Assembly: GCF_009799805.1 (NCBI RefSeq)
Contig: NZ_CP047050.1
Location: forward strand, 758,001-822,000
DNA length: 64,000 nucleotides
Source: Myroides phaeus
GTDB taxonomy: Bacteria > Bacteroidota > Bacteroidia > Flavobacteriales > Flavobacteriaceae
Reading direction: 5' to 3'
The position numbers were made by a program, and so were the translations under genes. Position 1 is the first letter of the stretch; the number at the start of each line of letters is the position of its first letter. Below the pieces are notes generated by a model. That model was not told where the DNA came from. It saw only the letters and a program-made list of their open reading frames with translations, and made no database searches. Of this stretch, positions 25,272 to 42,882 are shown in pieces.

Positions 25272-25490
25272 ATGAAATACGTAAAAGAATTTTCGTCTTT
25301 AGATTTTGACAACGATGTACTACATGTAACTTTTAATCAACATCAAATTGAACACCCTATTGTTCAAGTTGAAGAGATTATAGATAATTTTGTTTATCAA
25401 ATTAAACCGTGTAAAGTTTTTATTTCAAAGGCTCATAATATTGATATCAATTGCGATGTGCCTTTTAAAGGACGCGTTATCTTACGATAA
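25272..25490 (+). CDS. Small protein of unknown function (72 aa)
   Basis: This is a 72-residue acidic protein without signal peptide, membrane segment or cysteine-rich motif. It has a short beta-rich pattern (VLHVTFNQHQIEHPIVQVEEIIDNFVYQI) and ends in KGRVILR. I do not recognise the family. Support for it being real is the ATG start, codon use similar to neighbours, a near-match -7 region (TTATATTTTG at about 25227-25236) and a strong terminator right after the stop. It stands alone; the next plus-strand gene is 245 bp away. Confidence 0.65.
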   Translation: MKYVKEFSSLDFDNDVLHVTFNQHQIEHPIVQVEEIIDNFVYQIKPCKVFISKAHNIDINCDVPFKGRVILR

Positions 25491-25495
25491 AAAAC

Positions 25496-25596
25496 AAAAA
25501 AAAGGTATCTTGAATCAAGATACCTTTTTTTCCTTTATAACTAACCAAAAAACCGCTAACTCTATTTTCATTTGATTATGAAGCAGCTTTAAAACC
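25496..25596 (-). ncRNA. Candidate small RNA, copy B of a two-member family
   Basis: On the minus strand a -7 box TATCTTTG (25602-25609) is followed about 100 nt later by a perfect terminator hairpin with a T run, and no ORF of any quality lies between or beyond. Just upstream of the hairpin is the box TTTTTTGGTTAGTTA (25538-25552, minus strand), and an upstream TTCATAAT word is also shared with copy A at 40250-40365. In both copies the box lies about 8-11 nt before the terminator stem. No minus-strand gene follows within 1.7 kb, so this is not a 5' leader. RNA size and start are predictions. Confidence 0.6.
25499..25531. terminator. Bidirectional terminator
   Basis: A perfect 12-bp stem (25501-25512 with 25516-25527) with a 3-nt loop has T on one side and A on the other. 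It can end the 72-aa gene on the plus strand and the candidate small RNA on the minus strand. Confidence 0.88.
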
Positions 25597-25601
25597 TATA
25601 A

Positions 25602-25609
25602 CAAAGATA
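25602..25609 (-). promoter_or_regulatory. -7 box of candidate small RNA B
   Basis: The minus-strand TATCTTTG matches TAnnTTTG exactly. It is not upstream of any minus-strand protein gene, which is the main reason to suspect a small RNA. Confidence 0.5.
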
Positions 25610-25735
25610 CCTCACTCAGTTAGCTAAAAATATGACACTTATCAGCTTGGCTCAAAAAAAGCTTTATTAACTATTTTTTAAGCTTTTTTCCTCAACACGA
25701 TTTATTTTTTTACTTTTATCCATAAATAAAATCGT

Positions 25736-40249: not shown

Positions 40250-40365
40250 CAAAAAAACCCAGCCAAAGAAATGACTGAGTTTTTATGCTATTAACCAACC
40301 AAAAAACTATAAATTATGAAAAATTTATTACACTCAAATAAAGCTTATGACGACCTTATTTTTGC
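40250..40365 (-). ncRNA. Candidate small RNA, copy A of a two-member family
   Basis: On the minus strand the -7 box TACATTTG (40371-40378) is followed about 80 nt later by the box TTTTTTGGTTGGTTA (40293-40307, minus strand), and then by a terminator hairpin (40255-40265 with 40274-40284) plus seven U. Two of the stem pairs are G-U on the minus strand and would be mismatches on the plus strand, so the hairpin is built for the minus transcript. Copy B at 25496-25596 has the same order. A 21-codon plus-strand ORF (40318-40383) also covers this stretch but has no support. An alternative reading is a conditional leader of the DUF3108 operon. Confidence 0.6.
40255..40284 (-). terminator. Terminator of candidate small RNA A
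   Basis: An 11-bp stem (two G-U pairs) with a loop of 8 nt is followed on the minus strand by seven T (plus-strand A at 40252-40258). It sits about 25 bp upstream of the DUF3108 start. Confidence 0.75.
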
Positions 40366-40370
40366 GAGTG

Positions 40371-40378
40371 CAAATGTA
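40371..40378 (-). promoter_or_regulatory. -7 box of candidate small RNA A
   Basis: The minus-strand TACATTTG followed by CA matches TAnnTTTG exactly and has the same TTTGCA context as the tRNA-Asn promoter at 56769. Confidence 0.6.
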
Positions 40379-40477
40379 TAGCTTTTTTTTAATTAAAACT
40401 ACTGTCATTGCATTTTAACTAATCATTAACTTTACAAGCTTATTTGTTGGTCTTTTTAATATTTAATTAACTGAATT

Positions 40478-41638
40478 CTAAAGTGTTCCTCTTTTTTCTT
40501 GCTCACGTTCAATAGACTCAAACAAGGCCTTAAAGTTACCTGCTCCGAATCCACGAGCTCCCATTCGCTGAATAATTTCAAAAAACAAAGTTGGTCTATC
40601 CTCTACTGGCTTAGTAAAAATCTGTAATAAATACCCTTCTTCGTCAGCATCAATCATAATACCTAACTTTTGAAGCTCTTTAATATCTTCTTTCATCATA
40701 TCCATATGAGATCCTAAACGTCGAGGAATATCATCATAATAAGCTTGTGGTGGTGCTGATAAAAACTCGACTCCTCTACTTTTCATTAACCCGACTGTAC
40801 TTAAAATATCATCAGTAGCTACAGCAATATGTTGTACTCCTGGTCCATTATAAAAATCTAAATATTCTTCTACTTGAGATTTTTTCTTTCCTTCTGCAGG
40901 TTCGTTAATTGGGAACTTAATACGCCCATTCCCATTAGACATAACTTTACTCATCAACGCAGAATATTCTGTATTAATTTGTTTATCATCAAAAGACAAG
41001 AAATTCACAAAGCCCATTACATCTTCATACCAGTTAACCCACGTATTCATTTCATTCCATCCAACATTCCCTACCATATGATCAACATACTTCAATCCAA
41101 CTGCAGTTGGATTATAATCACTTTCCCATTTTACAAATCCAGGTAAGAATATTCCTTTATAGTTTTTTCGCTCAACAAACATATGAACTGTTTCACCATA
41201 AGTATAAATACCAGCACGAACAGCTTCTCCAAATTCATCCTTTTCTACTATAGGTTCCATATACGACCTTGCGCCTCTACTTATCGTTTCCTCATATGCT
41301 TTACGAGCGTCCTCTACCCATAATGCTACAACTTTAACTCCATCACCATGTTCAACAATATGATTATTTAATTCTGACTCTGCAGTCAAAGGAGTTGTTA
41401 ATACAATTCTAATTTTATCTTGCACTAAAACATAAGAAGCACGGTCTCTAACACCTGTTTCTAAGCCAGCATAAGCTAACGATTGAAATCCAAAAGCTGT
41501 CTTATAGAAATGCGCAGCTTGTTTAGCATTCCCTACAATAAACTCTACATAATCTGTCCCTAAAAGAGGTAAAAAATCTTGTGCTCCTTCAAATATCTTT
41601 TCTAAGCCAAACTCTACTGATTTAACTTCTCTGCTCAT
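40478..41638 (-). CDS. hpd: 4-hydroxyphenylpyruvate dioxygenase
   Basis: HPD turns 4-hydroxyphenylpyruvate, the transamination product of tyrosine, into homogentisate. The protein has 386 residues and two vicinal-oxygen-chelate halves. The iron ligands are His187 in VDHMVGN, His270 in GPGVQHIAVAT and Glu354 in LFFEIIQRMG, and the C-terminal gating helix GARGFGAGNFKALFESIE is present. It follows hmgA by 27 bp on the same strand. The two enzymes catalyse consecutive steps, so this is a tyrosine-degradation operon. The later enzyme fumarylacetoacetase is not in the window. Confidence 0.96.
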   Translation of the reverse strand: MSREVKSVEFGLEKIFEGAQDFLPLLGTDYVEFIVGNAKQAAHFYKTAFGFQSLAYAGLETGVRDRASYVLVQDKIRIVLTTPLTAESELNNHIVEHGDGVKVVALWVEDARKAYEETISRGARSYMEPIVEKDEFGEAVRAGIYTYGETVHMFVERKNYKGIFLPGFVKWESDYNPTAVGLKYVDHMVGNVGWNEMNTWVNWYEDVMGFVNFLSFDDKQINTEYSALMSKVMSNGNGRIKFPINEPAEGKKKSQVEEYLDFYNGPGVQHIAVATDDILSTVGLMKSRGVEFLSAPPQAYYDDIPRRLGSHMDMMKEDIKELQKLGIMIDADEEGYLLQIFTKPVEDRPTLFFEIIQRMGARGFGAGNFKALFESIEREQEKRGTL

Positions 41639-42832: not shown

Positions 42833-42882
42833 AATTACTAAATATTTTTGGTTGGTAAATAAAATATCGTAAGTATGCTACC

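Follow-up and report, generated by a model that had tools for sequence, protein, structure and literature searches.

A probable small regulatory RNA gene of Myroides sharing a short recognition sequence with a widely conserved RNA

Locus B, on the minus strand of a 64,000-nucleotide stretch of a Myroides genome (the window), most likely encodes a small regulatory RNA. A short recognition sequence is common to this RNA and a far more widely conserved one from the same window, locus A. The preferred reading takes B for a sibling of A, restricted to one lineage and equipped with the same base-pairing seed. In the full model, B would be a free-standing small RNA (sRNA) gene, ~100 nt long, that has a TAnnTTTG promoter and a terminator of its own, and A and B would both expose a U-rich GGUURGUUA segment just ahead of the terminator. 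This segment would pair with TAACYAACC-type sites in mRNA leaders near the start codon, and pairing would change, most likely lower, the translation of uptake and catabolic genes. The predicted targets are SusC-type receptors, sugar transporters and glycoside hydrolases in polysaccharide-degrading Flavobacterium; hmgA and an SQR-like gene are the candidates in Myroides. B would place the same seed under a different promoter. The chances that this model holds in full, with B as an sRNA gene, as a sibling of A and as carrier of a common seed that regulates the leaders of uptake and catabolic genes, were judged to be even.

Elements and constraint of locus B

The elements of B were located at 25609-25496, which bears out the earlier note's description of a minus-strand TAnnTTTG box, about 100 nt and a perfect terminator. 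Downstream of B on the minus strand there is no protein gene. The features, with the evidence for each, are as follows.

25602-25609, minus strand: -7 box (TAnnTTTG) of B, TATCTTTG (sequence; 25601-25620 identical in M. phaeus)
25497-25596, minus strand: locus B, predicted small RNA of ~100 nt with its start placed from the -7 box (fold z -4.4 to -5.3; M. phaeus comparison)
25575-25582, minus strand: TTCATAAT element of B, present in A too (sequence)
25538-25552, minus strand: TTTTTTGGTTAGTTA box of B, proposed pairing seed (shuffle counts; core of A)
25496-25532, minus strand: intrinsic terminator of B, which can also end the plus-strand ORF 25272-25490 (hairpin search; paired change 25512/25516)

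The terminator-like hairpin (25532-25496) has 17 pairs, and one such hairpin was found versus 0.1 in shuffles. As for the usual criteria of an intergenic sRNA, B has a promoter element (a consensus match only), its own terminator and no long ORF. A 72-aa ORF (25272-25490, plus strand) converges on B; the predicted RNA points into the 3' end of this ORF, and the hairpin is usable by both. No match to this ORF was obtained in Pfam or NCBIfam; related frames, judged by eye, occur at loci of several other Myroides. A second bidirectional terminator (L009 1501-1554, genome 1691033-1691086) is 82% like the B 3' end over ~53 nt and lacks the box.

B was compared with locus L036 of M. phaeus, the closest named genome. 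The B region (25517-25625) differs at 1 of 109 sites. The two flanking genes agreed at 216/260 (83%) of their third codon positions, and the non-coding strip next to B (25621-25735) at 108/115 sites. At these two rates, no more than one change in 109 sites would arise with a chance of 4e-8 and 0.009, respectively. Two sites are changed in the M. phaeus terminator, 25512 and 25516, and they pair with each other. Given the near-identity and the paired terminator change, B looks constrained as RNA, on evidence from two species.

The same comparison bears on two other readings. B might not be expressed, the hairpin being the bidirectional terminator of the 72-aa gene and the TAnnTTTG box and the box match fortuitous. 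The symmetrical hairpin does also serve the plus-strand gene, and plain bidirectional terminators such as L009 occur in the same genome, but the identical stretch spans the promoter and the whole body, beyond the terminator, and this reading is very unlikely. Still a little less credible is a small protein, encoded from an ATG at 25571-25569 by an 18-codon frame (MKIELAVFWLVIKEKKVS) with its stop at 25517-25515. M. phaeus keeps that frame intact, with TAA in place of the stop TGA; however, the stop change makes up one side of the paired change in the terminator stem, the identity reaches upstream of the frame into the promoter, A lacks such a frame, and there is no substitution within the frame by which coding could be judged.

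B was found in few genomes. At 28 loci around the neighbouring 2'-5' RNA ligase-like gene, the box was present at L036 only. A blastn search with the 136-base B region gave any match in 21 of the 398 genomes of the GTDB genus and matches over most of its length in 2/398, the window's own genome and G205; the box matches of G205 coincide with those of the genome of L036. The other 19 genomes contained short pieces only, with the terminator in 11/19. Outside the two species, B was not found by blastn in the 398 genomes.

Locus A and its relation to B

The earlier note had paired B with an unlinked locus, here called A, as two members of an sRNA family. A has the following features.

40371-40378, minus strand: -7 box of A, TACATTTG (sequence)
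40251-40369, minus strand: locus A, an sRNA conserved across the family, with hairpin 1, hairpin 2, open box and terminator (covariance models, covariation, genome searches)
40292-40306, minus strand: TTTTTTGGTTGGTTA box of A (alignment; shuffle counts)

A covariance model (R1) was built from 8 sequences. A search with R1 found A in 384/398 genomes of the genus, and in 331/333 of the near-complete ones. The further copies and conservation in relatives that the earlier note had asked for were obtained for A, and for B in two species only. Covariation was assessed on 42 chosen A loci (38 distinct), in an alignment fitted to the model, which favours structure; 17 of 32 pairs were changed on both sides. 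Doubly changed cells numbered 97, versus 24.6 in shuffles and 6-11 with slid partners. The segment CATAATTTATAGTTTTTTGGTT[G/A]GTTAATAGCATAAAAAC is nearly invariant in the 42 loci, and likewise in most of 20 further loci. The box lies within this nearly invariant core, and the variable N that the earlier note had marked in it is G or A across the genus. Since A is conserved and covarying, the box lies in its core and B is constrained in the sister species, two sRNA genes with a shared functional box are well supported.

A second model (R2) was built from the 42 A loci and used to search 316 genomes of the order under strict filters. Matches were obtained in 39 genomes, 27 of the same genus and 12 from 11 other genera, every one of the 12 in the same family. 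Ten of these 12 have TTTTTCATAATTTA, GTTGGTTA and the terminator, and two are looser. Second R2 matches were ruled out as paralogues, as 1 of 20 fetched has the box (L275, extended as L391) and the rest are plain terminators or unrelated. In 44/44 genomes with both positions listed, hmgA and A are on the same strand, with A 1.3-4.3 kb downstream. As regards spread by mobile elements, viral contigs held no exact core match, and neither A nor B matched in plasmids. A reading of A as a plus-strand coding gene (a chance 21-aa frame, by eye) was ruled out, since hairpin 1 covaries and has indels.

The window was scanned with Rfam 15. The gathering score was reached by a tRNA only; 6S, SRP, tmRNA and RNase P RNA were included in the scan, in agreement with the earlier view that B is none of these. 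The sub-threshold scores were far under the cut-offs, and Rfam has no family for A.

GTTAA repeats are present upstream of the A promoter (window ~40380-40480) and in many relatives, with a commonest spacing of 11 bp. With the promoter placed by a crude rule, 25 pairs 11 bp apart were counted in 103 distinct regions upstream of A. The repeats may be bound by a response regulator of the kind that recognises direct repeats. At B, one GTTAA copy was counted in 110 nt.

The box TTTTTTGGTTNGTTA has exactly 2 copies in the window versus a mean of 0.01 in shuffles, and 0/100 shuffles reached 2; the 3.1-Mb genome has 3 copies versus 0.17 expected from base composition. A (40378-40251) and B have the same order of TAnnTTTG promoter, TTCATAAT, box and terminator, and in both the box is 7 nt before the start of the paired A-tract of the terminator. 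The layout described in the earlier note agrees in promoter type, order and terminator distance, but not in the spacing from TTCATAAT to TTGGTTNGTTA, which is 26 nt in B and 10 nt in A. Of the marks of the A family, the core box GGTTNGTTA between a T run and the terminator is present in B, but hairpins 1 and 2 of A were mostly unpaired or deleted when B was aligned to R1 and R2. B scored second in the window by the two models (29.6 and 28.6 bits) and was the second match in its own genome (28.7 bits, E 0.038); in other genomes, plain terminators scored 30-39 bits. Descent of B from A is not established by the covariance models, so that the proposed family keeps a conserved and covarying A, a constrained B and the shared box, but not an established homology. 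The argument for a common origin is drawn from the exact 16 letters GTTTTTTGGTTAGTTA and from TTCATAAT, together with the promoter type and the terminator 7 nt away.

B could instead be a real sRNA with its own targets, unrelated to A, the shared 16 letters having arisen by convergence or coincidence. The low model score, the different 5' half, the different spacing and the restriction to two species fit such an origin. Two boxes in 64 kb versus 0.01, the common order of three elements and the common 7-nt terminator distance argue against it, and we regard it as improbable.

Seed complements in mRNA leaders

The third genome copy of the box was ruled out as an sRNA gene, as it lies antisense to the 5' leader of the SQR-like gene. 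There, TAACCAACCAAAAAA lies directly upstream of the ATG of an oxidoreductase gene with a Pfam Pyr_redox_2 match and a score below the cut-off of the NCBIfam sulfide:quinone reductase model. Being antisense to a leader, this copy is a candidate pairing site. In duplex tests with the SQR leader, A beat all but 1/300 shuffles and B all but 6/300. A candidate site in Myroides was also read in the hmgA leader.

42845-42856, minus strand: ACCAACCAAAAA in the hmgA leader, candidate pairing site (leader reading; duplex test with A)

With the hmgA leader, A beat all but 2/300 shuffles, and B was no better than shuffles (84/300). In 11 Myroides and near genomes, ACCAACCAAAA was counted 106 times versus 84 for the reversed pattern (hand sum). 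Among the sites read, it stands before hmgA in five genomes and, by an identical match, in G205, before the SQR-like gene in two, and before two further genes in two each. The first of these further genes we take to encode a protein like a methylmalonyl-CoA mutase subunit, and the second presumably one like a lysine-catabolic dehydrogenase. hmgA was ruled out as a genus-wide target, ACCAACCA being found in 2/30 leaders. In a second set of hmgA leaders (20 pieces), AC[CT]AACC occurred anywhere in 1, and the confirmed near-start copies were 0. Judged from these leaders, the hmgA site is absent beyond Myroides.

The complement of the seed was then counted before start codons in G369, a polysaccharide-degrading relative with an A-type seed. 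Two separate 400-kb sets were used, with 457 starts that have free upstream space and 45-nt leaders. Counts in the two sets versus dinucleotide shuffles were 6 and 3 versus 0.77 and 0.72 for ACTAACC, 3 and 3 versus 0.56 and 0.47 for ACCAACC, and 4 and 3 versus 0.45 and 0.48 for TAACTAAC; antisense counts were 0 or 1 per motif. ACTAACC and ACCAACC together marked 9 leaders versus 1.3 in one set and 6 versus 1.2 in the other, or 15 versus 2.5 when pooled (Poisson 8e-8). One of the 15 belongs to a gene cut at a piece edge and is therefore a false start. Ten seed 7-mers were inspected in the first set; among all 7-mers, ACTAACC ranked 9/4193 there and 346/3894 in the second, repeat set. The leaders precede genes for three outer-membrane receptors, GH3 and GH43 enzymes, a porin, a DUF5009 protein, an amino-acid permease, an aldo/keto reductase, a histidine kinase, an SdpI-like protein and three proteins without a Pfam match.

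In 464 kb of the host genome (242 leaders) there was no enrichment, with 0 ACTAACC and 1 ACCAACC (hmgA). The hairpin-1 loop complements AAACCACC and AACCACC numbered 0 in all three leader sets. A poly-A-extended site was not enriched in 62 genomes (110 matches versus 119 reversed, hand sums). No co-variation of the seed N with the target Y was seen, C:T at Y being 33:17 in G-type and 26:24 in A-type genomes (hand count); the transporter leader of G260 has C at Y although the G260 seed has A.

The pattern TTCATAATN{13,43}TTGGTTRGTTA, which is TTCATAAT plus the box at B-like spacing, was searched in the 398 genomes. It gave 32 matches in 30/398 genomes, versus 7 for the reversed pattern. The 30 matches with a locus comprise 25 antisense leaders, 2 that are B, and L392, L400 and L393. 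In the 25 antisense cases, TAACYAACCAA lies 13-43 nt upstream of ATTATGAA, which opens an ORF of at least 54 codons. ATTATGAA is the reverse of TTCATAAT and in its own right a common context of start codons, so that the leader count is inflated; start codons are therefore expected there, and the information is carried by the gene classes. By a raw class count, 18/25 leaders stand before uptake or catabolic genes: six MFS transporters of one kind, seven TonB/SusC-type receptors, a XylE-type transporter, another MFS transporter, an alpha-amylase, a pectate lyase and an acyl-CoA dehydrogenase. The remaining 7/25 precede other genes, including a sigma factor and a MutS-like protein. The Pfam scan covered 20/25; L415, L417, L418 and L420 were placed by likeness to scanned ones, and L421 is unscanned. 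In six genomes the MFS leaders (L397, L404, L411, L415, L417 and L418, at ~1500) are rich in AACC/ACC repeats directly before the ATG.

L392 (1481-1584, plus strand, in G184) is an orphan sRNA candidate with a promoter-like TAATTTTG, TTTTTTCATAAT, TTTTTGGTTGGTTA and a strong terminator. A weaker orphan candidate is L400 in G164; L393 is neither an orphan sRNA nor a leader. At L391 (650-744, minus strand, in G191), a hairpin-2-like hairpin, TTTTGGTTGGTTA and a terminator directly follow an ORF; from this 3' untranslated region an sRNA may be released.

The earlier note had left open whether the box is a pairing seed or a protein-binding site. The G369 leaders and the target-like leaders across the genus support a seed. 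Counting against the seed model are the 464 kb of the host without enrichment, the poly-A-extended site at background level, the missing co-variation of N with Y, the restriction of the hmgA site to Myroides and the duplex of B with hmgA, which is no better than shuffles. In the other case, A and B would be sRNAs whose box chiefly binds a protein (an RNA chaperone or translational regulator), recruiting or titrating it, with pairing secondary. The invariance of A, which exceeds any single seed and includes the uncompensated hairpin 2 and the stretch to the terminator, is in keeping with a protein site, as is the recurrence of GGUU-type motifs in the hairpin-1 loop of other members. A precedent is RbpB, which binds single-stranded parts of the FopS sRNAs. 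However, it is the complement of the box, not the box, that is over-represented before starts, and on the sense strand only. We hold a chiefly protein-binding box to be unlikely, if with an appreciable chance, and prefer the pairing seed.

Known systems and significance

Spot 42 of Escherichia coli is one conserved sRNA that acts on the leaders of many secondary-carbon genes. A and B would work like Spot 42, but no homology was seen, the best Rfam Spot_42 score being 22.6 versus a cut-off of 80. In Bacteroides thetaiotaomicron, GibS and the FopS paralogues are sRNAs with one conserved seed, FopS having 14 copies (PMC7366714, PMC11697453). They resemble the proposed A/B system in having several sRNAs with one seed, near-start pairing and TAnnTTTG promoters. 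They differ in copy number (14 FopS versus one A and one B) and in the seed, which is in the 5' part of the RNA, whereas the A/B box is 7 nt before the terminator. Their targets are SusC-type and carbohydrate genes; here there are sequence matches in G369 and across the genus, and none in the host sample. No sequence relation of A or B to GibS/FopS was found with Rfam.

Rfp18 of Flavobacterium psychrophilum is described as a strongly folded small RNA that is conserved throughout Flavobacterium and has a predicted set of mRNA targets (PMC9723704). Its pairing is placed in a third stem-loop, with metalloproteases and an adhesin as targets, unlike A. Compared by description only, A may be a published F. 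psychrophilum RNA such as Rfp18. For F. columnare, too, sRNA candidates that lack Rfam matches are on record (PMC5395568). Among the papers listed on sRNAs of Flavobacterium, including F. johnsoniae, and of Myroides, and on SusC, none was identifiable with A.

More tentatively, and with somewhat less than even confidence, A may be a master sRNA of the Flavobacteriaceae, encoded downstream of hmgA and hppD, that controls carbon-uptake and catabolic mRNAs through a 3'-proximal GGUURGUUA seed. It would be an independently arisen counterpart of Spot 42 and GibS/FopS, to which single lineages add orphans with the same seed but another promoter (B in two species of Myroides, L392 in G184, and in G191 the 3'-UTR copy). 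Little is charted of post-transcriptional control in flavobacteria, and no Rfam family covers A. If the proposal is true, the control of glycan and amino-acid use in flavobacteria could be tested directly through the readable seed and the orphan gene that carries it.
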